From positions 5,619,001 through 5,683,000 of the forward strand of contig NC_092680.1 in NCBI RefSeq assembly GCF_964355755.1: a stretch of 64,000 nucleotides of DNA. Reading direction: 5' to 3'. A program made the position numbers and the translations under genes. The stretch is from Antedon mediterranea. Lineage: Eukaryota; Echinodermata; Crinoidea; Comatulida; Antedonidae. The notes under the pieces were generated by a model. It did no database searches and was not told the origin of the DNA. It saw only the letters and a list, made by a program, of their open reading frames with translations. Positions within the stretch are counted from its first letter, which is position 1. The number at the start of each line of letters is the position of its first letter. Shown in pieces: positions 3,492 to 45,898 of this stretch.

Positions 3492-6400
3492 ATGAATCGA
3501 GCAGAGGTCGAAGCGTTTGTAGAACAAATCTCAGAATCAATTGATGATTTTAAGTACATACCGAAGCTGATAAAAGCAGTGAATGAATTCGACGAAGCCG
3601 AAGATGTAAATGAGCGGAACATGCGGGTACTAACTGACGTCATTGAAGACGACATATTTTCTGCTGCTGAAAAAAGGTTACAACATTTCTTGTTTACTAG
3701 TTGTTTTAGTAATTAACAATAGGCCTACTTCTTACTTGATGTTAGATGAGAGTAGATAAGAGAGGTGGTATTTAGTAGTTAGGCTACAGTACGACAGACA
3801 AAATTATCATCTTGAACAGACTCACATTTAAAGTTACTGCTAGAGACTAGCATGATAACCGTAAGACATAATCATAATAATCATCGGTATGGCAATTTGC
3901 TGCGTGAGTTGAAAGAACCAGATATGCCCGACCACTGTAAAAAATACGGAGGTATGTTTCGAAATGGAGGAAAAACGCTTACTTCCTTCGTGGTTTCAGA
4001 CTGATCTACCTTACATGAGAAAAATACCCAAAGTGGTGATCATTTCTAGTCATACTATTGCTAGTTACTCTTCCATATAATGAAATAAGACATTGATTAA
4101 TTAAAACCACCAAAACAATATTTGTCTTTGAATTACTTTTTAAACATGTATTTATTTGTTTGAATACAGCAAGGGTAAACAGTCTAAAGCATTAGCTGGA
4201 CTTGCAGTTGCCATGGCAGAGAAGAAGATGTCCGAGTATTACCGCAGTCTCGAACGTCTATTCAGAGAGCGGAACATCGTCAATTGGAAAGTAAATTATA
4301 CCTTGAATGTTCTCTCCAGTTTATATGTTTATATGTTAATAACTTTATCTTAGGAATGCATATAACCTCAAAGGGAAATCTTTCTCATAATTGTCATAAT
4401 ATCATTAATATAATATTAAGTGTTTCCAATTTAGGTCAATTACTACTACTACTCGGCTATCCAAGGAGTTGGATAGCCGAGTCAATTGCATCTAGTGGTT
4501 AGGACACTTGACTGTCATACAGATAGACCCGGGTTCAATTCCCGACAGCTCCCAGTCCACTCAGCTGTAAAATAGTACCTGGTTGAAAATACTAGGGAGA
4601 AAAAAGGCGGCGTAGAAAGCAACTGGCCACCCTACCACATAATGCCGAGGCTTAGTACAATGAGCTCCTAACAGCTCATTCCACTACGTTCAGAGAATAC
4701 GGGACTCACCTTTACCTTTACCTTCACTACTATATACTACAACTTTTCTATGATCGTTACGAGTTAATTTTATCTTATGTATTAAGGATCGATCAACAGA
4801 AGCCATAAAAGTAATAGAAACATTTATGGAACCACCAGCAATAAAAATGACTGATAAGGATGAAAGTTGGTATGGCACTGAAGAACCAGAAAGATATGAA
4901 ATGTCTGAACGAATTAAAGATTGTACAGAAAAAATGGTAAAAGCATTTGTGTAAGTAAAACTATACTTCATGCTAGAAATAAGCTTCTTGGAAAAATTAT
5001 GTTGTACCTCAGTATAGTGATTATAAAATGTATCTCACAAAATGATCATTTTCCGTCATAAGCACAAATGTTGATCTTCGGTGTCGAAACAAATGGATAA
5101 TAACAAAACAAACTATTAATCGTAATTATTTTCTTTTTTAAATGTATGTAACAGACGAGATAAGTTAACTAAGAAAGTGTGTATCAACCTTCTACAACTA
5201 TTGATAAACTGTCTGAAGAAATCCGAGATTGTTCATCTTATGATTGCCAAGGGATTGTTAGGTGACTGGGATTTTAAGGTTGAAGTAAGTTAATAATTTC
5301 TTTTGTTTCTTTATATAATAGTTTACACATTTATTATTAAGGGACGTGGCCACAATGACTACCTAACCAGTGATGACAGTAATATAATAACCGGTAGTAA
5401 ATGATCAAGACAGATCGTGTAAAGGGTCTTTCATTGGCGTTCGATTCGAAGGACCGGAACCATGCCGGAACAGCTGGTGTGAAAGACCCTTAATGTATGT
5501 TAGGGCAGCCAGACGCTACCGATTTAGTAACTGAAAATTACCTCTGGGCTAGTTTAACGGACCAATATTTGTTAGTATTTTTGAATGGGTGTGGTGCAGA
5601 TTTATCTAATCAGTAATAAATTCCTACAGGACAGTAAAGCTAAAACTCTGATACCTGAATTAGTAAAGACTGTTGATGAGTGGACGAGAAAGTTTGACGA
5701 GAAGTTGTCAAGCGACGAACATCCATTTGAAGAAGACTTTCCAACAAATGCGTTGACAGTTGCATTTGGCTCTAACTGGTAAGATACCAAAATCAGTTTT
5801 AAACACATTTTGACCTTTTTTAATATGTTCAACTTAGTGATCGTCATCATTATATTTTCAGTAAGTAATTTGAAAAATAATAATTTACACTAAAAAAAAA
5901 ATAACGCTATACTGAATTTATAATATAAATTAAAATACAATGACTATTTATAATAAAACGTTGAATTAAACCCTTATAAAGATCTACGGTAGTAACAATA
6001 CATTCATTTCCACTTTTAAAATAATGATGTAATGCTATTTAATCGTACAATGTCTATTAATTTAATTCACGGGAAAGCTGCGCAACGTCTCGTTTCAAAG
6101 GACTGAGTATTGAGAGTAAACAATCTTGGACGGATACAAACAGCTGAAGAATCAAATCTAATAACTAGTGTGTAGACCTTAATAATGTTATTTTTAATTG
6201 ATAGTCCTCCTAAATTATACCAAAATCATGTTGTATCAATATGGAAGAACCTATTGACAAAAGAATTAGACGGTCAGCCATTGACGGGATGGGGGTCAAT
6301 TGCATCTACAATATTAAGTGAATTCATCATTCCTAAGGTAAATATTTACTTTTTACACTATTTGAACATTATTCAAACAACGTTTTAAGCCTAATCCACA

Positions 6401-9400
6401 CTAGCATACTATACCAAACTCTTTGCGAACTCTGTGTTTGCGACTGTGTTTGTATTACCTGTCGAAACGAGTTACTAGGAGTCTATCATTTTGTCTATCT
6501 GAAAAATCACATTACTACAAAGCACCCAAATACTTGTTACTTGATTCGTTGAGTTTACAAGCCTCTGCAAACTGTCAAGAAAATACACGGCCCAACGTCT
6601 GCAAACTACGATAGTCGACTAGTCAACAGAAAACTGTTATTGCCAAACTCGAGTTGTTTCAGCCAACTTTCCTTGTACAGTAGACTCTAGGTTTTAAACA
6701 AAACCATGCAAAGTCTTCCTCAAATTAAAAATTGAATTATTTTCAAATAATTGCCTTCGTAGTTTTGTAAGCGTTTTTTTATATTTATTGTTGTATTCAT
6801 AGGCCACTAAGATTGATATGAATGAGTTGGTTCCCGGGGTTATGACGCTAATACGGTCAGACGTCGAGTTGTTAAAGGATCTTTCATCTAGCCTTATAGC
6901 ATCCATGTATGAAAAGGTGGACTCACTCGTGCCGTGTGCAGAAGAGCTGATTGATGTTTATCTTGACTGCGAAGAAATGTTCTATATAGGAAGTATGTGT
7001 TTAGATTTAATCAGGTCAAAATGTGTACTTTTTCCGGATCTATTACGGTAGTAGTTTAGAGTAAATATAAATATGTGGCACATGCAAGAGAAATCAGATA
7101 TAAGTCGGAATTTTCTAAAGGTATTTCAAAGAAACTTCCAACTTCGGGTACATTTTTAACAATTACGCAATATTATACTTTTTACTATGGTCATTTTGTT
7201 TCATCATAGTGTCATTAAAACCGTTGTATGCTAAATGTCCTGAGAAGATTATGAATAAAATGGATACAATTTTGGAAAAATTACCTGACTTGGATAAAAA
7301 CAGAAAGCAATTCCTTTATTTACTATTTGACGGAATTGTGAAATCGTCTACTAAGGTAAGTAAGAATTAAACAAAAACTTTATATTTTTTTTGTGATTAC
7401 AGATCCTTTAATAACTGGTCCAAATCATAACAAGACAATACAAAGTTTAATAAATCAGTAAATGTATTCAAACAATCTGAATACACACAGTTTATAAAAT
7501 AACGAGGAAGCTATGAATAATGTATCCAATAACTATATAAAAGGTATTAATTTTTGTTTAAAGGTAATTTCGTTCTATTTCAGACATTTGCACCACACGT
7601 CGATACCTTAATGGAAGATATCAATGAGTCGAATGTTCAATACCAAGTTCTCTTGGTTCTTGGTGAAGTTGCAGCGAAATACCCGGAAAAATTTGTAAAT
7701 CACATCGAAAGTCTTACTGGGGTATTAGATTCAGAGCCAAACGCAGTGTACCACGTAGATAAGATCATTGCCTGTGTTGGAACCATGAATAAGGTATGTC
7801 GAAAACAAGCAAATTCAAAATATAAAAGTGCTTTTTATTTTCCTTTTGCCCATTTTCAACCAAATGTAACATGCCTTCTTTTTCAACTACTTTCCAGGAA
7901 TGGGCAATCAAAATTCTAAAGATTTTAGTTGGTCAGCTTCAGACAGTACAAACGTCCTACCAGTCAGTTGTTTTAATGGAGATGAAAAGAATAGGCCATA
8001 AATTTCCTGAATGTTTAACACCATACAGAAAGGAGATAGAGGCCATGAAGGAAAGTTCACAGATGGGGGTAGGAGACTTGGTGATTTCACTAATCGATTT
8101 TATGGAAGGAAGAACGTAAGTCATTTGAGAAGGGTGTACATTCTTTTTCTAAACAGAGATAGATCAAGTTCAGAGAAAGTTTGGGAAGAATCACCTTTAG
8201 AAAATAAAACATTGAACACCCACATACCCATTTGATCATCGTTATCAGTGTTTATTTTTCTTATTTTCCCCCATAAAAGTTTGGAAGCTTTACATGAGGA
8301 TATTGTAGAACAGCGAGAGGACATCGAAGTCTTAGACACACGAGTAACAAACACGGAAAATAACGTTGCAGAGGTTACAGAGAAAGTTGACGAACAAGGA
8401 AAGGAAATAACGGCGGTAAAAACAGACGTCGCAGAACAAGGACAGAAATTGGAAGAGTTGGAAGAAGTTGTTGATGAAACCGTTGTAAAAGTTGACGAGA
8501 TAGACCATAAGGTAAGATGTTATACTTTGTAATGTTTGATGAGAATACCATTATTGATGATTATCTTTGTAGTCTACTGCAGATCGAAAGTGGACAACAT
8601 AACATGGTGGTGGTTTTTCTAAAATGACTATTATTATGGCAAATTTATTTTAAATAAAAATCTGTTAAATTTTCAGACGATTACTAATGCACCAAAATGG
8701 TCACGTGATGTTTCAAAACTACTAAATCCAGAAGCTGACTATGATTGGAGATTTTTGGCGATACGTCTCGGCTACTCGGGAGAGGACATTCGAAACTGGG
8801 CGTTGTCACCTGACCCTACTATGGCAATTCTAGCCGAATGGTACACGACCCATAAAAGTAGTGATGCAACATATGCAATATTGACAGCGTTAGAAGATAT
8901 GGGACAAACAGAAGCTGTAAAGATAGTTGAAGAATCTTTAGAACAAGCAGGTAATCAAGCACACATAAATAAACATACAATTTATTTTAAGTTTTTTCTC
9001 ATTGACGATTAATGTTTAAGCTTTAATGTATAATGAATAACAATCGTATTCTTAATTAAGCTTTTCATTGACATCGATAGATGCAATGGTTCCGAAATTA
9101 GGATCCGAAATATCAGAGAAACCACCAAAGGTTTTCATCAGTTACCAATGGGATCATCAACCTGAGGTTAAGGCTATAAGAGAGCATCTTGAGATGGCAG
9201 GGTTTGCTTGCTGGATGGACATTGGTCAGATGGGAGGTGGAGATAATTTATATGCAAAGATCAACGAAGGAATGAGAGCTGCTAAAGTTGTTCTGTGTAT
9301 GACAACTGAGAAGTATTCGAAATCTGAAAACTGCAACAAAGAGGTAAAAACAAAATTTACTGAATAACTGGGTTATCTCTACGACGCTACGACTATAGAA

Positions 9401-11559
9401 ATCTTACTCACATGGTAACTTTAAATACTAAATACTTGTTTATGTTTATCCTCATTACAGGTGAACTTGGCGAATCTGCTCAACAAGCCAATCATACCGA
9501 TCCTTATTGAGCGTACAGCCTGGCCTCCAGAAGGTCCAATGAGCATGCTTTTTGCACAGCTTCTTTACATCCAATTTTTCACGGATAAAGATTACGTCAG
9601 AGGAGATAAATTTTGGGTTGATGCCAAATTTGCAGAGTTATTGGCGCAAGTCAGTTATTATGCTGCTCCAGATCCAGAACAAATTACTGACGGTATGGGA
9701 AGATTATGTTTAAATATTTTATTTATTTCTATTTTATTTTATGTTTCAGAAGTATTCAAAACGTATTGTAATCATCTAATAATATTATTATTAAAAAAAT
9801 GATTTACGAAATACGGTTTTCTTTTTTTCAGAATACAAAAGTTGGGTACCAACTGTTGAGGCACCTGAGCAAGAAATAAAACAAGCTAAGAAAGATGATA
9901 AAGGCGGTGAAACCAAAGTGGTAGAATCCGAGCAGGTAATATTCAGGAGTATATAAAGTGTATTTGACGTAAGGTCACTAACATATACAGAGTAATATTA
10001 AAATAATAAGCCCATGTAATCGTAATTATTTCTTTCTTATTGATGATTGTATAGATGCATTGAGTATTGTGTTGCTCTACAAATGGGTTTATATCCACTA
10101 AGCCAGTAACTTAATCAACGATTCTTATCTTAATTCATTTATTACCAGTTTTGTTCTTTACTTAGCAAGCGGAAATCGAACCAGAAGTCTTCATATCATA
10201 CCAATGGGATCATCAACCACAGATAAAGGTCTTGTACCAACGACTGACCAGTCTTGGTTACTCGTGTTGGTTGGATATTAAACAAATGGGCGGTGGAGAT
10301 CCATTATATAGTAAAATTGACAAAGGTCTTCGCAAAGCTAAGGTAAGTCAGTTAAAATATTATTTACATACACCTATTGTAAGTAATCAATAGGCCTACA
10401 TTATAATAATGTACCTAACCTACGTAATTATTCGAATACTAGCTAGTGTTCTAAAGGACACAATTAAGTGCCACTGTTCATGTATAATTTTAATACTATT
10501 TTAAAACTCTGAAATTATGTCGTCCTTCTATAGGTCAGTTATAGAGAGTGTCATAACGTATTCTTTAACGGTATGGTTCGGTAGCACTACCGAAAATGAA
10601 AAGCGTGACCTAAATAGAATAGTCAAGACCGCGTCGCGTGTAATTGGATCTGCACAACTGCCTTTGGAGAGCATATTTTCGGATCGTCTTCTGAAAAAGG
10701 CAGTGGCTATCAAAGATGATCAATTTCATCCGGCCTATAGTATGTTCCAGTTGATGCGCAGCGGTTGGCAATTTTGTTCTATTAAGGCCAATAAGGCACG
10801 ATTTACAAATAGTTTCTTTGCAGGAGCTATTAGAGCCTTAAACATAATGTAGACACTTTTTTGTAATGTTTTTGTTTTTGAGTTCGTGTTGTGTCCGTTG
10901 AATATTGTGCTACGCCAACAGAGCAAACAGAATTTCTATGTTTTTTCTTAAAACAAATGATAATAAATGATACTTGACTTGACTTGACTTGAAAGTCGTA
11001 CTACCAAAGGTGCTCAATGCACAGTTGAGGTTAATTATTAGATTTAATATTTTGTCTATAAATTGTATTATAGGTTGTTATTTCCTGCGTTACGCCGAAG
11101 TATTCATTGTCAGCCAACTGCCGACGTGAAGTCAGTCTATCAGATGCTCTCCGTCGACCAATCATTCCAATCCTTCTCCAGCAGATGACATGGCCACCAG
11201 AAGGTCCAATGAGCATGACATTTACACAGCTTCTCTACATTGACTTTACCAAGGAGTCAAGTCAGGAAAGTTTTGCTGACGAAAAATTTGACGAACTTGT
11301 TGCAAAAATTAATGAACATGCGCAGCCTGGAGAGGAAGGTAAACAATCTACACCTGAACAAGTTTCTGATCAGCCGAAACCTGAAGAATCAAAATCGGAA
11401 GATCCTAAACCCGAAGAACCAAAATCCAAAGCTCCCAAACCCGAAGAACCAAAGTCTGAAGATCCAAAACAAGAGGCTCCTCAGCAGCAAAAACCTCCAA
11501 CAGCGCCTGAACCGAATAAGCAAAATCAGAAAAAATCGAAGACTTGTTGCGTTTTATAA
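3492..11559 (+). CDS. Copy B: helical-repeat / coiled-coil / death / TIR / TIR / CaaX protein, 1137 aa predicted
   Basis: Seventeen exons: 3492-3676, 4170-4290, 4787-4950, 5155-5284, 5630-5778, 6205-6337, 6803-6992, 7210-7355, 7584-7793, 7898-8115, 8280-8511, 8677-8950, 9081-9343, 9461-9692, 9832-9935, 10166-10342, 11074-11559. All junctions have GT/AG and phases agree. The ATG follows a 3' splice site by about 17 bases, so a noncoding leader exon is expected. Residues 1-549 are helical repeats, the later part resembling melted/VEPH1 proteins (from memory). Residues 549-626 are an acidic coiled coil, 627-717 a death domain (core [20 protein letters not shown]), 718-882 TIR-1, 883-917 a linker and 918-1065 TIR-2. 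An acidic [10 protein letters not shown] tail ends in CCVL, a CaaX box of geranylgeranyl type. Glu805 and Glu995 align with the catalytic Glu of SARM1/plant TIRs. Likely a membrane-anchored signalling or NAD-consuming immune protein (inference). Exon 5 acceptor is the least certain. Confidence 0.85.
4452..4735 (+). repeat. tRNA-derived SINE in intron 2 of copy B
   Basis: A tRNA-like head has an A box near TCTAGTGGTTAGGAC and a B box GGTTCAATTCC (about 4533-4543). A tRNA-unrelated body follows, then a short repetitive tail of CCTTTA units near 4710-4732. The 5' end overlaps an inverted hairpin, CTCGGCTATCC / GGATAGCCGAG, at 4452-4481. It is absent from the equivalent intron of copies C and D. 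Confidence 0.72.
5338..5494. repeat. Possible small inverted-repeat element in intron 4 of copy B
   Basis: The ends are TTAAGGGACG and, on the other side, AAAGACCCTTAA. This weak inverted pair with TTAA ends is suggestive of a MITE but not conclusive. Confidence 0.3.
10509..10991 (+). mobile_element. 5'-truncated L2/CR1-type LINE 3' end in intron 16 of copy B
   Basis: An open frame at 10517-10852 translates to the C-terminal end of a non-LTR reverse transcriptase. Characteristic words are [37 protein letters not shown] and [14 protein letters not shown]. After the stop comes a short 3' UTR and a TACTTGACTTGACTTGA tail, typical of the L2/CR1 group. Copies C and D have uninterrupted intron sequence here, so the borders are set by the paralogous empty site. 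It has no endonuclease or catalytic domain and is dead. Confidence 0.82.
11376..11475 (+). repeat. Coding minisatellite in the tail of copy B
   Basis: Imperfect 15- and 30-base units of GAAGATCCAAAACCCGAAGA type encode alternating PKPEE and PKSED pentapeptides. This is the short form of an array that grows in copies C and D. Confidence 0.75.
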
Positions 11560-11619
11560 CTGTTTACAAATAACATCCAAGTCATGCGTTTGCTGTGCAG
11601 TAATGTTTTCTAAACAAAT

Positions 11620-11625
11620 AATAAA
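11620..11625 (+). promoter_or_regulatory. Candidate poly(A) signal of copy B
   Basis: AATAAA sits about 60 bases after the stop codon. Confidence 0.4.
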
Positions 11626-13476: not shown

Positions 13477-13767
13477 TAATAATAATTATTATTATATTCA
13501 AATACATTTATTGTGTACTAGTGTGTTATAGCAATCATGTGGTTTATTTGAATTTAAACTAACTAAATTTAGTTGAATTTAATGAACGTAATAGCGTAAA
13601 GAAAATTACACGAAAGACTATTAATTATTTCTTTTTTTCTAACTTTTGAAAACGTTTCGTTTCGTTCGTTTCGTTCAATGTTTGTTTTAAAAAAAACACA
13701 AAAAAACAATGCAGTAACAGTAAGCTTAGTTTGCTATATGTATGTATCCCAATAAATAAATTAATAT
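13477..13767. other. Spacer before the leader region of copy C
   Basis: AT-rich, homologous to about 31247-31330 at its start. No gene seen. Confidence 0.4.
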
Positions 13768-14030
13768 GAGATGTTCTTGAGAGCGATTTCTATCTATTAT
13801 AATATCTACCTAACATTGATTATTACATCACCATGGCAATACTAGGCAATATTATTGTTTGTAGTATAATTAATTGGTTTATTGTATTGTTGATGATGCG
13901 GTTCACTGATTTCTAGCCAGCAGTACGCCTACTGTGGCAGTATGGTGGAAATAAGAAGAAATAAGCAGCAAGTACTTAGGTTGATACTGAGCAATAGCTA
14001 AGGTAATTATGATAATTAGTGCTTAAGAAC
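13768..14030 (+). promoter_or_regulatory. Conserved upstream block of copy C (probable promoter / 5' leader exon)
   Basis: Homologous to 1984-2270 and 32440-32710. It ends in the shared AGCTAAG|GTAATTATGATAATTA, a candidate leader-exon donor at 14002/14003. A LINE begins only about 70 bases after this donor, so a leader intron here would contain the whole LINE. Confidence 0.45.
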
Positions 14031-14071
14031 GTGAGAAGACTACTATAGTAATACTTAACTACTGTATAACC

Positions 14072-17000
14072 TGTGACATTCGTCCAGCTATTCTCACAGA
14101 TCACCAGGCGGTATCAATTAAAATAGATTTGCATGAAAAAATACGCGGTCCTGGTTTATGGATTTTCAACAATAGCTTTCTGAAAGATGAAACATTTACA
14201 AAATTAGTAATTAAAATAATTGATGTTTCAATACTAAAAAATAATAGAGAACCTGTAAGTGCAAGTTTGTTATGGGAGCTTGTAAAAACAAAAATAAAAG
14301 AATTTTCAATTGCATACGGAAAACAAAAAAATAAAAACCAGAATAAAAAGAAAGAAACATTACAAAAACAAATAAAAAACTTAACTGAAACAATTATGAA
14401 TACTCAAAATTGTGATATAACCATTGAAAATAAAATTGAAAACAAAAAAATAGAGCTTGAAAACATTTATAATATAGAAGCAAAAGGCGCGCAAATTAGG
14501 TCCAGAGTAAAATGGATAGAGGAAGGCGAGCGGAATACAAAATACTTTCTTGGGTTAGAAAGATCCAAAAGTAAAAAGAAACACATAAAAAGTTTAATTA
14601 CTAAAGATGGGAGCTTAGCAACGAGCCCAATTGATATTTTAAAGGAACAAATACAACATTTCGAAGGTTTATACGCAAAAAATGTTATAAACCCTGGAAA
14701 AATTAATAAATACCTTTGTAAATCTATTATAAACAAGCTTTCAGAAATAGAAAAAGAAAATTGTGAAGGTTACGTCACTATTGATGAATGTAAAAAGGCC
14801 ATTTCAATGATGGAAAAAAATAAAACACCTGGATCGGATGGTCTAAGTGTTGAATTTTATGTGTTCTTTTGGAATAATATTAAACATTTAATTTGCGATG
14901 CGTTAAATGAAAGTTATAATTCTCAAGAATTATCCTTTTCGCAAAAACGAGGTGTAATCACCCTTTTGTTCAAGGATGGAGAAAGAGAAAATTTGAATAA
15001 TTGGCGTCCCATTACCCTCTTAAACACCGATTACAAAATTCTTGCACATGTATTAAGTAACAGACTTAAAATGGTTATTAAATCAATAGTAAGTTCAGAC
15101 CAAAAAGGTTATATAAAAGGCCGTTTCGCTGGTGAAAACATTCGGTTAATAGAAGACCTGCTTTATTATACAGAGTGTAATGATATCGAAGGGGCAATAA
15201 TTACCGTAGATTTTAAGAAGGCTTTTGACTCTATTAGTAGAGATTTTATGTTCAATGTTCTAGAAAAGTTTAACTTTGGAATGTTCTTTTGTAACTGGGT
15301 AAAAGTATTATACAATAACGTTGAATGTGTCACAGTTAACAATGGTTGGGTTTCAAACAATTTTAAAATGGAAAGAGGTATTAGACAAGGTTGTCCTCTA
15401 TCTGCTCTGTTATTCATTTTAGTGGTTGAAGTAATGGCATCTAGAATAAGAAACAAAGATGACTATAAGGGTATTAAACTTCCAAATAATGAAAATAACA
15501 TAGAAGCTAGAATAAGCCAATTAGCCGATGATACTATTTTGTATGTTGGTAATGACAAAAGTATTAAGTCAGCAGTCAGTGTAATTGAACGTTTTTGTGA
15601 AGTATCTGGAATGACACTAAATAAAAAAAAAACCAATGCTTTTTGGATTGGTAAATGGAAGAACAGAATAGATAGACCTTTAGAATTAAATTGGGTAAAA
15701 CACCCGATCAAAATTTTAGGCATATATGTAGGGTATAATACAGAAGAATGTACCAGAAAAAACTGGGATGTTAAATTAATAGAGCTAGAAAAGACTTTAA
15801 AACAATGGAATGCTAGAAATCTCTCAATTTTTGGTAGAATAATAATCCTGAAAAGTCTTGCACTATCTAAATTAACATATGCTGCAAATATCACTGATGT
15901 TCCAAAATATGTATATACAAAAGTTACAAATCTAATATATAATTTTATTTGGAACAATAAAAGGGAAAAGATAAAAAGAAAAACTCTAATTGGTGATGTT
16001 GAGATGGGAGGCATTAAAATGCCTGATTTTACTCTTCATGTTAACGCACTCATGTGTGGCTGGTTAAAAAGAATTATGAATGATGATGGTGCTAAATGGA
16101 AAAATATTCCAATGTATTATATTAAAAAAATATGTGATGTTAATGTTTTACTTAATATGTCATGTTATAACATTATTGATGTTAATTCTGATAAAATTCC
16201 ACTGTTTTACAAAAATATGATAAAAGCCTACATAAATTATAACAGAATCTCTAAAAAAAAACCTGAAACTTATAACGATATAATGAATGAGCAACTGTGG
16301 GGAAACCACTACGTTAAACTAAAAAAAAAAATCGCTTTTCTACAAGCATTGGATTGACAGTGGCATTATCAGTATTAAAGACATTGTTAATAAGAACACT
16401 TTTTTAACATCAAACGAAATACTGGTGAAACTACAATGTAAAACAAACTGGTTAAATGAGTATTTGTGCATTATTAAGGCAATACCAATTCAATGGAAAC
16501 GTATTATTAAGGAGGTAGATATTTTCAATTGTGATGATAATGATGAATTAGTTGGGACCAAGTATGAGATTAATACTACCAAACTAATATACTCATGGTT
16601 TGTGAAAGAATATTTCATTATTCCAATGTCACAACTAAAATGGGAAGAGTACTTCAATGATAACAACATTGATTGGAAAACTTCTTGGTTACGGAAAGTA
16701 TGTAAAATGAAAGATAAGAAACTAGCACAATTCAATTATAAGATGTTACATAGAATACTGCCTACCAACAAACGGCTGTATCAGTGGAAAGTTAAGGAAA
16801 CACAAACGTGTGACAAATGTGGAGAAATTGAAAACGAAAATCATTTGTTTTTTAGTTGTAGATTTATTCAGAAATATTGGAGGAAAATGCTTAGTATCTT
16901 TGTAAGTTTAAATCACAATAATATATCATTTAAACAATTAATACTAGGAACGGGAGATAAGCTAATAGATTATATTTACACTTTTGCAGCATTTACTATT

Positions 17001-17163
17001 TATAGAATAAAAATGTTATCTGCACTAAATAAGCCAGTGGGTAAATCTTTATGGAATTCATTTAAAAGCAATATGTTATATAACATTGAATGTGAAACAT
17101 ATAACAATAAAGAAACAAGTATAGAAAAATGGGTAGCTTTAAGAAATAAGATTATGATAATAT
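14072..17163 (+). pseudogene. LINE ORF2 remnant: reverse transcriptase and zinc-knuckle C-terminus, one frameshift
   Basis: Frame 1 is open from 14072 to the stop at 16355-16357; frame 2 carries on to 17163-17165. The shift falls in a run of about 11 A at 16321-16331: reading on in the next frame gives SLFYKHWIDSGIISIKDIV and then the second open frame. RT motifs in order are TPGSDGLSVEFY, NWRPITLLNTDYKILAHVLSNR, TVDFKKAFDSI, RQGCPLSALLF and the catalytic LADD at about 15520-15531. The C-terminal zinc motif is CDKCGEIENENHLFFSC (CCHC), matching the zf-RVT family. The endonuclease is almost entirely lost, so independent retrotransposition is impossible. Confidence 0.85.
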
Positions 17164-17540
17164 AATTTCCAATTTTTATACGATTAACTGAAAAAGAATT
17201 ACAGTGATACGGGTTACTGGTGGTACTGAGCTATTATTGTTTTTTTTTTTATCATGTATATAAATATATTGTATAATCCGGGTTGTAAAATGAAAACAAA
17301 CAAATGAAAATGTGTGAACTATTTTAAAACGGGATAGATGATAATGATGATCCTGTCAAGTGTATAACAAAATATAAGAAAATTAATGAAAAAAGGAGTA
17401 ATACAGAATTCATATATGTAAAAATGTTACTTATGAACTGTAACGACATTTACAAGTTAAATAATACGATTTTATGTAATATGAGATAATATGAATGTGA
17501 ATAAAAGTGGTGTTTGCGCCACAAAAGAGAAAAAAAAAAT

Positions 17541-24500: not shown

Positions 24501-25028
24501 GTATATCACCAGGCGGTTTAGAATTACTATTCTTTGCCTAATTTGTTTATATATATATATATTATTTTTTTGCACTTTATTTGTAGTGTCATTAAAACCA
24601 CTGTATATTAAATGTCCTGAGAAGATTATGAGTAAAATGGATTTAATCTTTGAAAAGTTACCGGACCTGGATGCGAACAGGAAACGATACCTTTATCTTT
24701 TCTTTGACAATATTTCGAAAACTTCCACTAAGGTAAGGCAAGAACAAACTGATTCATGGTCCAAACTTTGTCTTTACTTTTGAAACATCTCTTCAGTTCA
24801 AATCAAACATGTTTTCAAACAATATGACAATAAGGATTTATTTAATCATTATTACTATTATCAGTATTTATTCCAGCAATGGTGAGCTGAGATTTTATAG
24901 GTCTAAAGAACTGCAATAACATAAATTACGGTAAAAGCAAAACAACCAAATTCTTGCACCTGACAATGTAATCTTCAATTTGAAAATATATCAGTTATAT
25001 GCAGATACACTGATGTGGTTTTTAAGAC

Positions 25029-25061
<33 letters not shown>

Positions 25062-32367: not shown

Positions 32368-32369
<2 letters not shown>

Positions 32370-32418: not shown

Positions 32419-32420
<2 letters not shown>

Positions 32421-32439
32421 CCAGTAAATAAAATAATAA

Positions 32440-33229: not shown

Positions 33230-36200
33230 ATGAAACGGGCAGAGGTCGAAGCGGTTGTAGTTGAAATCTCAGAATCAATTGAGGATTTTAAGTACATGCC
33301 AAAACTGATTAAAGCAGTGACTGAATTTGAAGAAGAGGAGGATGTCAGAAGGCGGAACATGCGAGTATTAACAAATGTCATTGACAAAGTACTTTCTGCC
33401 GCTAAAAAAAGGTTTGTCATACGACATTTTATTTAAACTGTTTTAGTTATTTGAATAACTAAACAGGCCTAGTAGCATGTAGGCCTAGTTACTAAGTTAA
33501 GCTAAGTAACTGACTTCAAGGAATGGTATATATAAGAATATTTAAGAGCGTATTTATTTACTCACACAGAATCCTCCTAATTTGTTATAAGTTATTGGTG
33601 GACAAAACTTAAAACATTATAATTTACTTCATTACTTTACTAAAGCGTGTGGTTCCCACTACTAGCGACGCAACGCAAGGACGTAACGCAACGCAAGTGA
33701 ATTGACCAATCACAAGCGATGGCTTATTCGCTTGTGACTGCTAACTGTCTATAACTTCGCTTGTCATTGGTTAAAACGCTTGCGTTGCGTTTACGTCCTT
33801 GCGTTACGTTCTAGTGGGAACCAAGCTTTAAGGGCTTAACAGCAAATAGTTCAGTACGGTACATAAGAATAGACGGATACATTATTTATAGACTTACTAC
33901 CATATTTAAATGAAATAATGACTAATTTAACATATTTTTCTTTTAAATTGTTGAAATATGTATTTAAATTTGTTTGGATACAGCAAGGGTAAAGAGTCTA
34001 AAGCATTCGCCGGACTTGCAGTTGCCATGGCAGAGACGAAGATGTATACGTACTGTAGCAGACTGGAAACTATATTTAAAGACCGGAACATCGTCAATTG
34101 GAAAGTAAAGCTATTTCTTTATTTTAAAGGTTCTCCCCCAAAGTCTAGATTAAATTAGGATAAATTACTTATCTTAGAAATTCATGTTTTAATTTGTTGG
34201 CAATGGAGAGAGACAGAGTAAGGAATGGTTGCCGCATTCTCACTCTTTCTCCTATTGGTCGTTATGTGGACGCGCTGCCCGGGCTTCATCCAGTAAAAAT
34301 CGGAATTCCCCGCGCTATGTGCAGCCATTGATAGGGCACTTTATATCATGTGATATACACAGTCGTTCAATCGATGACCGGAATCTCTTTATGTGTTTTA
34401 TTTTGTTTACCAATTTTAATTGGTCAAAAACTTAAGACCACTTAAAAGTAGTCGTAAGGTTTTTTTTATGAACGAATACTCTCAATAAAATTCCTAATTA
34501 GTATTATTATATTATCTATTATTCTTCAGTTTTTCTTCAGTTCTCAGGCCAATATATTTTTAATTTTTTATCTTGTTTATTAAGGACCACTCAACAGAAG
34601 CTATACAAATAATAGAGTCATTCATGGAACCAACAATGACTGACCATGAACATGCTAAAGAAAAAAGATATTTTAACATAGAAATGGTCGCAGCATTTGT
34701 GTAAGTAGGCCCTACAGTACGCTTAAAGATCTATTTTCCCCCTGAACATTTTTTTTAATATGCCATTTTAATATCACATAATAGTTATTTACATTGAACA
34801 AAAATTGAACTGAAAATAAATTATTTATCTTTATTTTTAAAAAAAATAGTCAAATTTACAAAAGCCCGTTCGGGCCACTAGTTAATTATATTTTAAGAGC
34901 TGTTACCAGGTGGCCGCCAGATAACTATCTAGCGGACGCCACTTAATTATCTGGCGGAAGCCACTTAATTATCTGTCTGTATTGCATCAACAAGTATGTT
35001 TGCTTTGACATACACTATGACGGCAAATACAATGTTGACGCAAATATTGGAACTTAGATTTAACGAAAAAAATATTGGCATGGTAAAAATGCAATTATTC
35101 GAGATATATCCTATTTTTTATAATTTACACTTTATATTAGGGCTCGGAAATATTTGGGTAATTTATCCTATTTTATTTATAATTTGGGCTTGGTTATGCT
35201 TAGGTAGGACTTGACCTGGGCTATGGGCTTTTGTCACAAGAGAATGTACAGTGTCTGGCGGTCAGATGACGCAATACAGACAGATAATTAATGGCGTCCA
35301 GAAGATAATTAAGTGGCGGCCGCACGATAATTAACTGGCGGCCGCCAGGTAACAGCTCTTAAAATACAATCAACTAGTGGCATGAACGGGCTTCCGTACA
35401 AATTGGCAGCCGGTTGAATTTAACCGTTTGTCAATTTTGAAAACAATTTTTTCGGGGTTTTTTTCTATGGAAGGGATTAACATTGGTAAAACTATAAAAT
35501 ACCTTATTCAAAGTCTAATATTAATTTTTTTTTTCCTAATTTTTTTTAGACAACAATACATCTTTAATAATAAATAACATTATACAAATAAATGGTGTTT
35601 TTCTGTGTATCCCTCTATTGACAGTATTAACACCTTTCTACCTAATTAAAAATAATTATACAGTATTTACTGTCTTTTATTCATTTATTTGTACATTTTA
35701 TTTTTCTAATATTTGACAGCACCGAACATTGGTACATTCTTAAAAAATATGTTTTAAAGTGGATGCAATAACATTACAGAATCCTTCCATCATTTTTAAC
35801 ATAGTATAGGCATATTAGGCCTAACTTAATTCATAATTAAAATCGAATAAACATAAGAGAGGTTTCGCAATCTTACGAATACGATAACGAAAACGGATAC
35901 GTCACACATTTTGTGAAACTTTTGAGCTGATCCCCATTTCATATTCGTAAAGCGTATTTGTGTTGACGAATATCACCAGTCATATTCGTAACTACAAAAC
36001 GAGTAGGCCTATAGTTTTTGATCTATTTTGCACATTTTGCATTTGAATCAGGAATGATTCATGATTATAATATAATTATACTTTTATTGAAAGTAATTTA
36101 CTAAAGTAATTTACTAAAATGCCAGGTAAATTTTGATAAATAGCAATTTTTAAAGTCTTCACTCGCTTTGATGTTACGCTCGGCCTAGGCAGCCAAGCAC

Positions 36201-39200
36201 CAAGCAACACGTACTGCGCTTCCCTCACATTTACCGCAGTCATATTTTGGGAGGCGCCCTCAATATTTCGTTGCAATGCGAAACTTTTTTACTGGCTTAC
36301 GAAAAACGAATACGTGTGCGTGACGTATCCGTTTTCGTTATCGTATTCGTAAGATTGCGAAACCTCCCTATTAACATAGAAAAAGGATCAATAACTATAA
36401 AAGCATATTAGGCCTACATCGTAATACGGTCTGCTCGATGGAGTTTGATCGACAATACAAAATAAACGCTTCAATTTGAAACACAAAGCTAATTTAAACG
36501 TATTATATTGTTTAAATAATAATATACAATTTAATCATTACTGTATAGTAACTTTTGTACAGGTGATATTCGTCTTTAACTGTTTTTCTTTATTTTATAG
36601 ACGAGATAAGGTGGCTAAGAAAATTGAAATCAAGCTTGTACAACTGTTGATAAATTGTCTTGAGAAATTCAACTATATTAATCTTAAGGTTGCTTTAGGA
36701 TTGACATATCGCTGGGATTTTAATGTTGAAGTAAGCTATTTATAGTTTAATCTCGTATCTAAGAAAGTTTAGATATTACTAAAAGGCTAGATTGATTAAA
36801 GATGTAGGCATATTGTCCCTTGAAACACAAAAAAAATGAAGGTCAAAATATTCTAAATTTAAATTGGCCATATCAAAGTAATATTAAAGTTATTCACTTT
36901 AAGTCGAAAATTTACGTATTTAACAGGTAAATTAATTTGATTACATTTCGTCTGGAAAATCGTCGCGAGCGAAAGTAAACAAAGATTTCAGAACACGAGT
37001 ATGCATTATGTGTGATGCTAATTAGGATAGTTTACAACTCGTCACGGTTGAAAAGGTGTTTTCACATAGATCGCGAGAAGTTTTATGATTATGCATACAG
37101 AGTAGCCAAATTAGCGTGTTGCATTATGAGATATGTTTTGATCGAAACTTTGACTGGAAGTCAAAGTTATTTTTTTAACAAAAAAGTATGTATTTCAGTT
37201 AAATGATTTTTTCTTCGACAAATTTTTGGTGATAGTTAATAACTATTATGATACTTCAAAATTACCCACATTTTTCGAAATATTTTTTTAAAATTTTTTT
37301 GGAATTAGTCAAAGGAACAATACATCTTTAACATTTGTAAACACGACAGTAATAGTAATCAATCGATGATAAGGTAAATTTATTCATAGCATGTGTGCTA
37401 TACAGACTAGCAAGCAAAGCTTTACGGCTAGTTACACTTTCATTAGAAAGGTATATACTACGGAAGTTTTTCTATAATATCTGTACATTTTTAACTGGCT
37501 GTAATTGGCACATTAATCGAATCTATTATCAAACAAAAACTACAATACTTTGGACATATTGCCAGACGGGATGGAGATAGTATGGAGAAAATGATTATGT
37601 TTGGGAAAGTTGAGGGGAAACGAAAAAGAGGAAAACAGAGACCCAGATGGATTGATGGTATAAGTGGTGCTGCAAACCGACCAATAATCAGTTGCTACAA
37701 TGAAGCTCAAGATCGGCAAGAATGGAGACACCTCATCAGAATGGTCACGAGTACTCAGATATGAGTAGAACGACGAGAGAGTAATTGAATATTATATAAA
37801 TAGTTCTAAGGCATTAGGAACTTTAAACCGCCAATTAATTTACAGAATTGTTTTTATATTCTTATTTGATGGAGATCCTGAGATGATCTGATACCGGTGT
37901 TTTTTTTTTGTGTCTGTCTTTGTATTTAAACTTATTTTATGCAATTGATTTTGTAACTATGGACGTCCGTTTCCGAAATAAATACAAAATGAATGAAATG
38001 AAATAAACGGAAGATTATGTTCGATCATGTAATTTCAAATAGGGCATTTGCTAACGAAATTAACTACTCTGTAGAAAGCTAATGCTTGTGTTTTCAAATG
38101 GGTTATCTAATCGATAATTAATTGTTACTTAAAGGACAGGACTATTATACTCAAGTTAATAAAGACTATTGATGAGTGGATGACAACATTTGATGATATA
38201 ATGGCAAAAGACAATCGTCCCCTCGAACTAAGGCTTGTGGAAGAGTCGTTGGAAATTGCATTTGAATCCAACTGGTAAGAAACCAAGCTTTTGAACGATA
38301 AGCCATTGTTTTAGTTTTTCACCTTAGACCTATTAATCTTCCTTATTTCAGTACCTAACTAATTACATTGTAAATTTACTGTGTTTACGTTCAGTTATTT
38401 AACAGAAAAACGGTTTTAAAAATGAGAGTTTAAAAAAATGAAGTAAATATCTTGGACTGGTGTTACCGGTGTTTTTAAACGAAAGCGGAAAAAACGAATG
38501 ATTTGAGGTGTGTAGGCCATGTTAATGTCATTTTCTCCCATTTTTTAGCCCTCCAAAATTATACCTAAACGATGTTATAAGAATGTGGAAGAATGCATTG
38601 ACAAAAGAGTTAGAAGGTCAACCATTGACAGGATGGGGAATAATAGCATCTACAATAATAAATAAACTCATCATTCCAAAGGTAAATAATATTGCTTTTA
38701 ACTTTACAAAGTACTCCTATTTCTCATTTTGGACAGAGTTTAACAAAACATTACAACAATATATATTTATGTTGTGTGTTATAACTTTAATCTTGAATTT
38801 TAGGCATTTTGTATTAAAGATACGTTATATCAAATAACGTCCCATTCATCACTAATTCTTCCTATTATCATCGTTTTCTTTGTCTTTGGCCTGAATAGAA
38901 TAAAAATACTAAAATTTATTATTATTATACATTATTGTTTATAACTTTAATATTAATGTACATAGAAATATGTATACATACCAGCTGAAATTAATACGCT
39001 GACATTAATTAAATATTTGTTTGGTTCACATTTGAAATGTTTGTAACAGGACATTCTTTTCAAATATTTTTTTTGGAGCGTTTTTATTTCATTTACAGGC
39101 TTCTATGTTTGATATGACTGAGTTCGCCCCGGGTGTAATGACTCTAATACGGGCGGACATCAAGAAGTTAACTTCTTCTGCGTCTAGTGTGATATCATCC

Positions 39201-42200
39201 ATGTACGAAAAGGTGGACACATTTGTGCCGTGGACAGAAGAACTCGTTGACCTTTTTCTAGACGACGATGAGATGTATACTAGTATAGGAAGTATGTGAT
39301 CAGATTAACGCTGCATTCACACTCTTTCGCAAACGGAAGGCGGCGCCATTTTGTTCTATTATTATTATTTAATCACCAATGAATAATAATGATATGGTCA
39401 ATGTTATTAAACTAAATTTGAATTGAATAGTCTTAATGATGACGTCATATTGTCAAAATATCATATCAGCTCAAAATATATAATAAGTTGGAACTATTGC
39501 ATACATTTATAGTACAAATTGTTGCCGGGGTATATTATACAAAGAATTATAACGTAGGCCTTGTTACAACCGTTAATGTAGAAAACGCCAGCTAATGTCG
39601 AAACAACCGTTAATGTAGAACAACCCACCGCTTATGTAGTAAAACCTCCAGCTTATGTAGAAACACCAACAGCTTATGTAGAAAATAAAAATCAACACCA
39701 GCTAATGTAGAAACAGTCAACAGCTTATGTAGTAACGAAAATTGCCTCCCAGCTTATGTAGTTACTATCGCCAGCTAATGTAGAAAATGTTATACATTTT
39801 ACAAATGCATCGATCTTTACTTAGCTATCAGTCTTTCCACCTTTCGTAAGCAACCAACTTTCTAAAACGACCCACATATCGTAACCAACCATCTCTGTTA
39901 AGAGACCCTTTCACATAATCGACCACCTCTCGTAAGGGATCACCTCCTCTCATAAGGGACCACTTCTCATAATCGACCACCTCTCTCGTAAGCGACCACC
40001 TCTCGTAAATGACCACCTCTTTTAAGGGACCATGACCTCTTTCTCTCTTTTAAAGAACCACCTCTCTTAACGTCCCCACCTCTCGTAAGTGACGACCTCT
40101 TTTAAAGGACCACCACCTCTATTAAGGGACCGCTTCTTATTGACCACTTCCGAGAGGTGGTCGATTATGATAAATGGTCCCTTAAAAGAGACGGTGGTCG
40201 TTCAATAGAGGTGGTCACTTACCAAAGGTCGTTGTGAGAAGCGGTTCTTTAATAGAGAGAAAGAGGTTGTGGTCCCTTAAAAGAGGTGGTCACTTACGAG
40301 AGGTGTGGTCGTTAAGAGAGGTGGTCGCCTACGAGAGGTGGTCGATTATGAAAAGCGGTTCCTTATGAGAGGAAGTGATCACTTACGAGAGGTGGTCTAT
40401 TATAAGCAGTGGTCCCTTAATAATAGAAACGGTGGACGTTCAATAGAGGTGGTCACTTACCAGAGATCGTTGTGACGGGAGATAGTCGATTATGAGAAGC
40501 GGTCCTTTAATAGAGAGAAAGAGATCGTGGTCCCTTAAAAGAGGTGGTCATTTACGAGAGGTGTGGTCGTTAAGAGAGGTGGTCGCTTACGAGAGGTGGA
40601 AAGACTGATAGCTAAGTAAAGATCGATGCTTGCACATGAATTATAGACATTTTTGTAAAATATATAACATTTTCTACATTAGCTGGCGATAGTAACTACA
40701 TAAGCTGGGAGGCAATTTTCGTTACTACATAAGCTGTTGGTGTTTCTACATAAGCTGGAGATTTTACTACATAAGCGGTGGATTGTTATACATTAACGGT
40801 TGTTTCGACATTAGCTGGCGTTTTCTACATTAGCGGTTGTAACAGGCCTAAATCAAATATTTGTGTTGAAAAGAAAATCTTTCAAAAAGAACTTATAATT
40901 ATGTTGAAAATTATGTCCATTATACAAACATTATTTAACTTCTAAATATAGTCTACAACTTACCAATGGAAACTAACTTGAAAATGTTTTCTTTTTCTTC
41001 GTCAATAAACCCTTACTATTATTATGGCCATCAATTATTAAATTTGTAGGAATATTAAACAATTATTATTATTTATTTTTAGGTTCATTAAAACCACTGT
41101 ATGTTAAATGTCCTGAGAAGATTATGAGTAAAATGGATTTAATCTTAGAAAGGTTACCTGACATGGATGCGAAAAGGAAACACTATATTTATGTTTTATT
41201 TGACAATGTTTCGAAAACTTCCACTAAGGTAAGGCAAGAACAAACTGATTAAATATTCCTATAGATAAACAACTGGTCCGAACTGGTCCGAACGTGGTCA
41301 TAATTTTGAAGACATGCACTATCTTCAGTTCAAATCAAAACACTAGGCACAATATAATAAGCGGCAGGTCCAAGAGCTTGTTTAGAGAGCGCCCATTGCC
41401 ACCTCTCTACAAACTTTAAAGTACACTAAATCCTTTGTTAGCCTAAACCCTTAATAGTAATTCAGAGCTGTACCGTTGATCGAAAATTCACTGCGGTCAT
41501 CCTCAAATCCAAGATGGCGTTCAAAATTGCCGGCATTTCTAACACAAGCCTAAGGTTTAAAAACTGTACATGTTATCAAACAATATGAAAATAAGGATCT
41601 ATTTAATTATTATGATTATCATTTCACCATAGTTAAAGGTGACCCAGAAAGGGTGAGCTTATTTTAAAGGACCCTCAACAAGACAAGACGACACACAATA
41701 ACAAACAATATAAACAAAATATAAGCAAATTAAAATGTATCTAATCTTCCATGATACAGACTCCCCATGTGACACTGTATCACGGAATTTGAATGTGATA
41801 CTAAAAAAATAATGTCTTTGTGGAAATACATCACAAAACGACGCATATTGGTCTTTAAAAAAATAAGTAAGTGCATTACGCCAATTTACTATGTATTATT
41901 ATAATATTTATGCTATAGTTGTTTTATTACAGACATTAGTACCACATATTGATACTATCATTGAAGATATCAATGAGTCGGATATTCGATACCAAGTTCT
42001 CATGGTGCTTGGTGAAATTGCTGCGAAATACCCAGAAAAATTTGTTAATCATGTTGAAAGTATTAATGGGTTATTAGATTCCGAACCAAACACAGTGTAC
42101 TACGTAGATAAGATAGTTGCCAGTGTTGGAACCGTTAATAAGGTACGTGGTGGAAATTCAAATGTAAACGAAAAGTGCCTTAATATTGAATTGACAATTT

Positions 42201-45200
42201 GTTAAATATATTTTACTTTCTTTGTTCAAATTTTATAGGAATGGGCAATCAAAATCATAAAGATTTTAGTTGATCAGCTTCAGACAATACAAACGTCCTA
42301 CCAGGGTATCGTTTTAATGGAAATGAAAAGAATAGGCCATAAATATCCTCAATGTTTAACACCATACAGAAAGGAGATAGAGGCCATGAAGGGAAGTGCA
42401 CAGATGGGAGTACGAGACGTGGTGATTTCACTCATCGATTTTATGGAAGGAAGAAGGTAAGTCACTTGAGATGGACGTACAAATTCTGTTTTTCTCACGA
42501 AAATCAAGCGCATGGGAAAGGGAAACCTTTTGGGTTGTTAAGGTTATCAAAAAAAGCTTTATTCTTGGGAAGATATCAACACCTCAATTCGGTCCCTTTC
42601 CAACATCCTGTGTCCGCACCGGTAAATGATGTGCTGGTGTTTTTTCTCCTCAATACGACAGTTTAGAAGGTTTACACGAGAACATTGTAGACCAGCGAGA
42701 GGACATCGAGGTATTGGATACGCGAGTGACAAACACAGAAAATAACGTTGCAGAAGTTACAGAGAAAGTTGAGGAACAAGGAAGGGAAATAACGGCGGTT
42801 AAAACAGACGTCGCAGAACAAGGACAACGATTGGAAGAGTTGGAAGAAGTTGTTGATGAAACCGTTGTAAAAGTCGACGAGATAGATCATAAGGTAAGAT
42901 TTTATTCCTTATATTTAACATTTAAGATGGGATTAACAATCCTTTTCATGTGATTCACACAAATTATAGACTTACAGTACGTGTGATGTGATATGATAAG
43001 ATAAGAAATGGATGAAAAGATTGCAATATTTAAGTAAAAACCACATATCTATGACAACATTTCTGACAAAATCTATTTTCTAGACGATTACTAATGCACC
43101 AAAATGGTCACGTGATGTTTCAAAACTACTAAATCCAGAAGCTGACTACGATTGGAGATTTTTGGCGATACGTCTCGGCTACTCGGGGGAGGACATTCGG
43201 AACTGGGCGTTGTCACCGGACCCGACTATGGCAATTCTTGCCGAATGGTACACGACCCATAAGAGTAGTGATGCAACATATGCAATACTGACGGCGTTAC
43301 AAGATATGGGACAAACAGAGGCTGCAAAGATAGTTGAAGAATCTTTAGAACAAGCAGGTAATCAAGAACACATAAATACACATTTTCTCATTGACAATTA
43401 ATATATAAACATTACTGTATAATGAAAGCCAATCATGTTTCTAATTCAGATTTTCATTAAAATTATAGATGCAATGGTTCCAAAATTAGGACCCGAAATA
43501 TCAGAGAAACCGCCTAAAGTATTCATTAGTTACCAATGGGATCATCAACCTGAAGTGAAGGCTATAAGAGATCATCTTGAGATGGCAGGGTTTGCTTGCT
43601 GGATGGACATTGGTCAGATGGGAGGAGGAGATAATTTATATGCAAAGATCAACGAAGGAATGAGAGCTGCTAAAGTTTTTCTGTGTATGACAACTGAGAA
43701 GTATTCGAAATCAGAAAACTGCAACAAAGAGGTAAAAAGAAATTTACTGATTAACTAGGCTATATCTCTACGACGCTTTCAACAAATTATAGAAATCTTA
43801 CTCACATGGTAACTTTAAATACTAAATACTTTATTATGTTTATCTTCATTACAGGTGAACTTGGCGAATCTGCTCAACAAGCCAATCATACCGATCCTTA
43901 TTGAGCGTACAGCCTGGCCTCCGGAAGGACCAATGAGCATGCTTTTTGCTCAGCTTCTTTACATCCAATTTTTCACGGATAAGCATTACGTCAGAGGAGA
44001 TAAATTTTGGGTTGATACCAAATTTGCAGAGTTATTGGCGCAAGTTAGTTATTATGCTGCTCCCGATCCAGAAAAAATTACTGACGGTAAGTGAAGATTC
44101 TATTTAAATATTGAATGTCCTACTGTAGCCTTTTCTTCCTTTGGGTATTTTATGTTTCAGAAGTATTCAAAACGTATTATAACCACCTAATATCATTGAT
44201 TGATTTAGGAATCACGTTTTTCTTTTTCAGAATACAAAAGTTGGGTACCAACTGTTGAAGCACCTGAGCAAGAAATAAAACAAGCTAAGAAAGATGATAA
44301 AGCCGGTGAAACCAAAGTGGTAGAATCTGAGCAGGTAATTTTCACTAATTATACAGGAGTATATAAAGAGTATTTGACGTAAACTCACTAACTAAATAGT
44401 AAATATTAGAAATAATAAGCCCTTGTAATCATATTAATTCAATAATTTATTGCTGATTGTAGAGATGGATTGATGTGTGCTCTACAAATGGGCTTATTTA
44501 CAAAATGTTATCAAGTCACTAACTTAATCAACCATAGCTTTTCCTAATTTATTACCAGTTTTGTTCTTTACTTAGAAAGCGGAAATCGAACCAGAAGTCT
44601 TCATATCATACCAATGGGATCATCAACCACAGATAAAGGTCTTGTACCAACGACTGACCAGTCTTGGTTACTCGTGTTGGTTGGATATCAAACAAATGGG
44701 CGGTGGAGATCCATTATATAGTAAAATTGACAAAGGTCTTCGCAAAGCTAAGGTAAGTCAATTCTACTCTATTATTTACATACTACTATTGTAAATAAAC
44801 AATAATATAATAATGTTCCTAACCTACCTAAATATTCGAATACTAGCTAGTGTTCTAAAGGACACAATTTTAGGTGCCACCGTACTTGTTTTATGTATGT
44901 ACAATTTTAATACTATTTAAACACGCGAAGATTGTACTACCAACGGTACTCAATGCACAGTTGAGGTTAATTATTAGGTTTAATATTTTTGTCTATGAAT
45001 TGTATTATAGGTTGTTATTTCCTGCGTTACACCGAAGTATTCATTGTCAGCCAACTGCCGTCGTGAAGTCAGTCTATCAGATGCTCTCCGTCGACCAATC
45101 ATTCCGGTCCTTCTCCAGCAGATGGCGTGGCCACCAGAAGGTCCAATGAGCATGACATTTACACAACTTCTCTACATTGACTTTACCAAGGAGTCAAGTC

Positions 45201-45898
45201 AGGAAAGCTTTACCGACGAAAAATTTGACGAACTTATTACAAAAATTAATGAACATGCACAGCCTGTAGAAGGTGATACGTTTGCAAAACCATCTACACC
45301 TGAACGAGTTTCTGATCAGCTGAAACCCACATCCGAAGATTCGAAACCCGAAGAACCAGAGTTTGAAGATACGAACCCCGAAGAACCAAAGTTCGAAGAT
45401 CCGAACCCCCAAGAATCAAAGTTCGAAGATCCGAAACCCGAAGATCCAAAACCCGAAGAACCAAGACTCGAAGATCCGAAACCCAAAGAACCAAAGTTCG
45501 AAGATCCGAAACCTGAAGATCCAAAACCCGAAGAACCAATGCTCGAAGATCCGACACCTAAAGAACCAAAGTTCGTAGATCCGAAACCCCAAGAACCAAA
45601 GTTCGAAGATCCGAAACCCGAAGAACAAAGGTTCGAAGATCCGAAATCTGAAGAATCAAAGTTCGAAGATCCGAAATCTGATGAGTCAAAGACCAAGGAT
45701 CCGAAATCCGAGGAAGCAAAGACCGAAGAACCGAAACCAGAGGACGCAAAGTCTGAAGATCCGAAATCCGAAGAATCAAAGTCCGAAGATCCAAAACCCG
45801 AGGTACATGCTCCTAAAGAAACACCGCGGCAAACAACCCCTAATCCGCCTGAACCAAATAAGCATCACAGAAAATCTAAGGCATGTTGCGTTTTATGA
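33230..45898 (+). CDS. Copy D: helical-repeat / coiled-coil / death / TIR / TIR / CaaX protein, 1252 aa predicted
   Basis: Seventeen exons: 33230-33411, 33984-34104, 34585-34700, 36601-36730, 38135-38274, 38549-38681, 39099-39291, 41083-41228, 41933-42142, 42239-42456, 42662-42893, 43084-43357, 43469-43731, 43855-44086, 44231-44334, 44576-44752, 45011-45898. Exon 3 is 48 bases shorter than in B and C, losing 16 residues in frame. Exons 12-16 are almost unchanged. Putative NADase glutamates are Glu786 and Glu976. The acidic tail is the longest (about 30 pentapeptides) and ends in KACCVL. The frame also runs upstream of the chosen ATG without a stop, but the start is placed at the ATG just after a 3' splice site, as in copies B and C. 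Introns 3, 4 and 7 are swollen by transposons. The gene appears intact. Confidence 0.85.
33643..33828. mobile_element. MITE in intron 1 of copy D
   Basis: Terminal inverted repeats AAGCGTGTGGTTCCCACTA / TAGTGGGAACCAAGCTT, flanked by TA on both sides. The interior is also self-complementary (AACGCAAG / CTTGCGTT). Confidence 0.8.
34862..35393. mobile_element. Foldback-type element in intron 3 of copy D
   Basis: Long inverted arms start AAGCCCGTTC and end GAACGGGCTT. Each contains ATTTTAAGAGCTGTTACC and several GGCGGCCGCCAG-ATAATTA-type subrepeats, with a unique AT-rich centre. No transposase seen. No clear target duplication found. Confidence 0.78.
35540..35573. repeat. Partial end of the TTAAAGATGTATTGT element family
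   Basis: Contains CAACAATACATCTTTAAT, matching the right end of the element at 36796-37331. No partner end found. Confidence 0.4.
35856..36368. mobile_element. MITE with ~48-bp inverted ends, intron 3 of copy D (family 1, copy 1)
   Basis: Ends GAGGTTTCGCAATCTTACG and inverse are near perfect for about 48 bases; TA flanks both sides, as for Tc1/mariner-type insertion. An inverted relative is at 56898-57397 in the NEDD4 gene. No transposase. Confidence 0.87.
36796..37331. mobile_element. MITE with TTAAAGATGTA ends, intron 4 of copy D
   Basis: Left end TTAAAGATGTAGGCATATTG pairs with right end CAATACATCTTTAA. TTAA occurs at both borders. No coding sequence supported; the short frames inside do not resemble proteins I know. 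Confidence 0.72.
37375..38007 (+). mobile_element. LINE 3' end fragment in intron 4 of copy D
   Basis: Reading about 37545-37763 gives [20 protein letters not shown], then [16 protein letters not shown] and EWRHLIRMV. These are the conserved extreme C-terminus of RTE/Jockey-like reverse transcriptases. A 3' UTR and an AATGAAATGAAATAAA tail follow. 5'-truncated and dead. Confidence 0.78.
39304..39355. mobile_element. Truncated MITE shared with copy C
   Basis: Left part of the element at 23974-24107, at the identical place in intron 7 just after GTATGTGATCAG. Confidence 0.7.
39557..40848. mobile_element. 1.3-kb foldback element built of nested tandem repeats, intron 7 of copy D
   Basis: Ends GGCCTTGTTACAACCG and CGGTTGTAACAGGCC are inverted, flanked by TA on both sides. 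The outer arms hold many units of CAGCTTATGTAGAAAC type. The inner arms hold CCACCTCTCGTAAG-type units. The halves mirror each other about a centre near 40145. Copy C has the uninterrupted site near 24308. No transposase; non-autonomous. Confidence 0.87.
45340..45810 (+). repeat. Coding minisatellite in the tail of copy D
   Basis: About 30 in-frame 15-base units. Includes a higher-order tandem of two 75-base blocks around 45420-45570. The unit core is GAAGATCCGAAACCC. Confidence 0.9.

Follow-up and report, generated by a model that had tools for sequence, protein, structure and literature searches.

A tandem cluster of predicted Death-TIR-TIR genes in Antedon mediterranea combines a putative melted/VEPH1-type N-terminal region with a C-terminal CaaX box

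Proteins with an armadillo-like N-terminus, a central death domain and two TIR domains have been catalogued in invertebrates as "ecTIR-DC family 6" (Gerdol et al. 2017, as cited), and are described as cytosolic in PMC6836662. The family is elevated in gills in a mussel atlas (PMC5549309) and is also cited in Loripes and Mytilisepta papers. Comparable proteins are described in Aplysia, where MyD88-like proteins carry an added armadillo fold and one carries a ROCO region (PMC9334734). No experimentally shown function for the Death/double-TIR/armadillo architecture was found in the literature searched. The N-terminus of melted, the counterpart of VEPH1, is likewise predicted to adopt an armadillo fold; TSC1 and FoxO are partners of Drosophila melted, and according to a 2019 review no paralogue of VEPH1 is known from any species (PMC6734325). 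Neither a combination of VEPH1 with a TIR domain nor a prenylated TIR or death-domain protein was found in the literature searched.

The cluster presented here lies in, and partly just upstream of, a 64,000-nucleotide window (G000:C11:5619001-5683000) of the A. mediterranea assembly, and the whole 354-Mb, 18-contig assembly was searched for relatives. It consists of four complete tandem genes, designated Z, A, B and C, each encoding ~1,120-1,250 aa in the same order: helical N-terminus, coiled coil, death domain, TIR, TIR, proline-rich/acidic tail, polybasic stretch and CaaX box. The features are as follows, in window coordinates.

-7779 to -149, upstream of the window (loci L001/L002): exons 1-15 of the intact gene Z
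144-1079, + strand: gene Z exons 16 (144-320) and 17 (645-1079), encoding TIR-2, the tail and the CaaX box (KRCCVS)
3492-11559, + strand: gene A, 17 exons joined in frame with GT-AG introns, 1137 aa, ending TCCVL
3492-5778, + strand: gene A exons 1-5 (aa 1-249), extra N-terminal region with no relative detected outside the cluster
6205-8115, + strand: gene A exons 6-10 (aa 250-548), putative melted/VEPH1-type armadillo region, matching melted exons 2-6
8280-8511, + strand: gene A exon 11, coiled coil of 77 aa identified by heptad test
8677-8950, + strand: gene A exon 12, death domain (Pfam Death 7.7e-10; p75NTR 7e-6)
9081-9692, + strand: gene A exons 13-14, TIR-1, with its glutamate in SENCNKE
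10166-11559, + strand: gene A exons 16-17, TIR-2 (glutamate in SANCRRE), PKPEE/SED repeat tail, polybasic stretch and CaaX box
18567-29684, + strand: gene B, 17 exons, 1174 aa, ending ACCVL
33230-45898, + strand: gene C, 17 exons, 1252 aa, with the longest repeat tail, ending ACCVL

The exons of gene A were read one by one, and genes B and C have the same 17 exons and the same intron phases, with exon 3 of gene C shortened to 116 nt from the 164 nt of the other copies. The three complete 17-exon paralogues proposed in an initial annotation of this DNA are thus borne out, 3492 being the start of A and 45898 the stop of C. The same annotation listed a fourth 3' end; this is present as exons 16-17, but it is the end of a complete gene and not a lone fragment, as gene Z (1121 aa) is intact and its other exons occupy the 8 kb preceding the window. 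Between genes A and B (14027-17165) lies a non-LTR retrotransposon with matches to reverse transcriptase (2.8e-34) and zf-RVT (1.7e-8) in two reading frames, and a WW-domain exon (3.8e-13) follows a signal-peptide-like start at 62579-62914 on the - strand.

The exon joins are predictions, made from sequence conservation between the paralogues, and an artefact in which a neighbouring melted-like gene and a Death-TIR-TIR gene were wrongly joined has therefore to be weighed. It is highly improbable: the same order and phases are repeated in four tandem copies, exons 10 and 11 are separated by an intron of only ~165-220 nt with a conserved phase of 2, and a single clam unigene transcript of the family is described in PMC6836662 as carrying armadillo, death and two TIR regions.

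With a long armadillo-like N-terminal region, a central death domain, two C-terminal TIR domains, no signal peptide and no transmembrane segment (highest 19-residue hydropathy 1.24), the predicted proteins resemble ecTIR-DC family 6 as it is described in the papers that cite it, and on those descriptions Z, A, B and C are probably a tandem cluster of family 6 genes. The initial annotation named no characterised protein with this domain order; the order had in fact already been published for family 6 (PMC6836662), as had armadillo, death and TIR together in Aplysia (PMC9334734). Relative to the literature searched, the new elements are the proposed melted ancestry of the N-terminus and the CaaX box. 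In that literature, neither the papers citing family 6 nor the Aplysia paper mentions either one, and the present genes are further set apart from family 6 by their arrangement as four tandem copies.

The N-terminal half was compared with the melted gene of the same genome, which lies on contig C3. A VEPH1 stretch served only to locate this gene, and the melted exons were then read from the DNA. By blastp, genes A-C scored 72-75 bits against melted (A, 72.4) and gene Z 36 bits, against 29.6 bits for the best of 2000 shuffles. A profile of the four N-termini scored 66.6 bits (best shuffle, 7.1 bits), and hhalign returned a probability of 98%. The gene structures agree as well. The introns that follow family exons 5-10 have the phases 2,0,1,0,0,2, and the same series follows melted exons 1-6. 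In the alignment, three of these six introns occupy exactly the same column in both genes and the remaining three are offset by 2-9 columns; exon 9 of the family has the same length, 210 nt, as exon 5 of melted. The sequence signal resides mostly in exons 9-10, where the alignment is gap-free over 137 columns, while no other sub-region is individually significant against melted. Exon 5 aligns weakly to melted exon 1; for exons 1-4 no similarity to melted was found, and melted-like internal duplications among them were not significant. A genome-wide search with the N-terminal half gave no matches outside this cluster.

A generic armadillo/HEAT resemblance arising by analogy could account for an overall identity of only 21-24%, for the 36 bits of gene Z alone and for individual significance being confined to exons 9-10. 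Against this, the N-terminal profile that scores 66.6 bits against melted matches neither an armadillo protein nor a SARM1 chain in the PDB at E <= 10. The gap-free 137 columns, the coincident phases with three exact positions and the shared 210-nt exon also argue against analogy, which is consequently very unlikely. These comparisons are by far best explained by common ancestry of exons 6-10 with the armadillo region at the melted/VEPH1 N-terminus. The relationship is easily missed, because Pfam reports nothing significant for the family N-terminus or even for the genuine melted N-terminus. Exon 10 modelled alone forms four helices, and a fold search with that model was uninformative.

The N-terminus had initially been called "melted/SARM-like". 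The melted part of that description is upheld by the bit scores and by the intron phases and positions; the SARM part is not, as a SARM1-type N-terminus finds no support in the PDB result given above, the likeness to SARM1 being limited to the general plan and the type of TIR. The cluster genes differ from melted in having death and TIR domains and, by Pfam, no PH domain; at the melted locus of this genome a PH-type exon lies downstream (E 1.8e-4, slightly below the Pfam cut-off for a single exon).

For the remainder of the protein, the coiled coil, death domain, two TIR domains and CaaX box listed in the initial annotation were all recovered, and a domain search was among the checks proposed there. 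Pfam gave Death at E 7.7e-10 and two TIR_2 stretches (E 1.2e-48 for the protein), with nothing convincing elsewhere and no SAM domains. In the exon 11 coiled coil the hydrophobic fraction at a/d positions is 0.77, a value reached by none of 2000 shuffles. Structure models were made for exons 10 and 12 singly. That of exon 12 has six helices, and its first fold matches are the death domains of MyD88, p75NTR, UNC5, FADD and ankyrin, all with weak E-values; by sequence the nearest is p75NTR (7e-6). The death domain followed by TIR is shared with MyD88, to which the cluster genes add a 630-residue N-terminus, a second TIR, enzyme-type TIR domains and the CaaX box.

TIR-1 and TIR-2 are 56-59% identical within one gene, whereas each shares 94-99% identity with the corresponding TIR of copy A, indicating that duplication of the TIR preceded that of the genes. 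Among solved structures in the PDB, TIR-1 is nearest to Cat1, the bacterial TIR 3h16, SARM1 and AbTIR rather than to MyD88 or TLR, and the catalytic-site glutamate of SARM1 and Cat1 lines up with that of TIR-1. A glutamate is also present in TIR-2, in the motif NCRRE, outside the best-matched stretches of the PDB alignments shown. Four positions before the glutamate, Asn occupies the place of a Trp in SARM1. Retention of the glutamate makes NAD+ cleavage possible, and both TIR domains may be NADases, as the initial annotation suggested for the protein, although this residue is found in more than 70% of all TIR domains, including those of non-enzymatic TLRs (PMC7075850), and is no proof of activity.

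These features invite comparison with SARM1, which also joins helical repeats to a TIR with the conserved glutamate. As a SARM1-like executioner, the protein would hold its TIR domains inactive through the armadillo region, and their release would lead to NAD+ destruction and cell death; the helical N-terminus, the glutamates of both TIR domains and the NADases nearest to TIR-1 are all in keeping with such a role. It is nevertheless unlikely, as the N-terminus is of melted type with no SARM1 chain among its PDB matches, SAM domains are absent by Pfam and the Trp of SARM1 is replaced; two TIR domains and a death domain are further departures from SARM1. A stronger contender, given a little under an even chance, is a pure scaffold with enzymatically dead TIR domains that bind TLRs and MyD88 by homotypic contacts only, as proposed for the clam relative in PMC6836662. 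The MyD88-like pairing of death and TIR domains, the cytosolic character of the protein and the frequency of the glutamate in non-enzymatic TIR domains (PMC7075850) speak for this, but the PDB comparison places TIR-1 and TIR-2 nearest to enzyme-type TIR domains rather than those of TLRs and MyD88.

A CaaX-type sequence closes all four proteins (CCVL for A, B and C; CCVS for Z), preceded by a polybasic stretch. The PKPEE/SED tail upstream is encoded by a 15/30-nt repeat array (11345-11530, 29368-29640 and 45312-45860). The number of repeats varies from gene to gene, giving tails of 57-208 aa, yet the CaaX end is kept. A CaaX box predicts prenylation but does not prove it; the products of A, B and C would be geranylgeranylated (X = L) and that of Z farnesylated (X = S), which would place the proteins on the cytosolic face of a membrane and agree with the membrane tethering proposed in the initial annotation. 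This lipid-anchor signal may replace the membrane role that the PH domain has in melted.

A second Death-TIR gene on contig C6 (L009; G000:C6:30126000-30135999, 5724-8075) has a death domain (1.4e-10) and the closest TIR outside the cluster. That TIR shares 63% identity with TIR-1 and contains an intron that matches the one in TIR-2 in both position and phase. The gene ends NCLVCAIL, also a CaaX box, so the CaaX box probably belongs to an older Death-TIR module. The exons upstream in L009 appear ROC-COR-like by eye, and Pfam support for this was not found; the ROCO-type version described in Aplysia may be a parallel to this gene. Elsewhere on contig C6, a 464-aa frame (L010; G000:C6:22748000-22757999) joins a TIR to a SAM-like region and is accompanied by a further TIR exon, with no CaaX end. 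Many death-domain exons on contigs C3 (19-25 Mb) and C5 (12-14 Mb) apparently reflect a lineage expansion of death-domain proteins, and TIR matches are densely packed at 5.55-5.66 Mb of contig C3, on both strands and in single open frames of ~180-230 aa.

The two halves of the cluster genes have diverged very differently. Across exons 1-10, dN between copies is 0.11-0.27 and dN/dS 0.28-0.82, whereas dN does not exceed 0.04 and dN/dS is 0.03-0.28 in the exons for the death and TIR domains, indicating strong coding constraint. At the amino-acid level, the N-terminal half of these predicted proteins thus diverges quickly while the death/TIR half is almost frozen, a pattern consistent with an input half that diversifies on a common output. 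In the 3' half dS is lower too, and the introns there can be aligned between gene A and its paralogues, which does not hold for most introns of the 5' half. The low dS and alignable introns suggest that gene conversion has probably homogenised the output half, and part of the contrast between halves would then be due to gene conversion and not to selection.

Overall, the cluster probably encodes prenyl-anchored cytosolic adaptors in which a rapidly evolving input half is joined to a conserved Death-TIR-TIR output half. CaaX prenylation would hold the protein on the cytosolic membrane face, where the armadillo half would receive a copy-specific input and the coiled coil would promote oligomerisation. 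The clustered death and TIR domains could then recruit partners by homotypic contacts in a MyD88-type assembly that is pre-placed on the membrane, and the two TIR domains may additionally cleave NAD+. A bolder scenario, considered doubtful, starts from melted as a regulator that keeps TSC1 and FoxO at the membrane. Exon shuffling would have joined its N-terminal scaffold to a prenyl-anchored Death-TIR-TIR output, giving a membrane-bound NAD-cleaving switch that couples growth and nutrient signalling to cell death or immunity. Were this true, the cluster genes would be the first recognised paralogues of the N-terminus of VEPH1.

Melted ancestry would correct the published claim that VEPH1/melted is without a paralogue. 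For an architecture so far catalogued in invertebrates, it also supplies a hypothesis for the input half, while the CaaX box offers one for the location of the protein and the near-frozen TIR pair one for its output.
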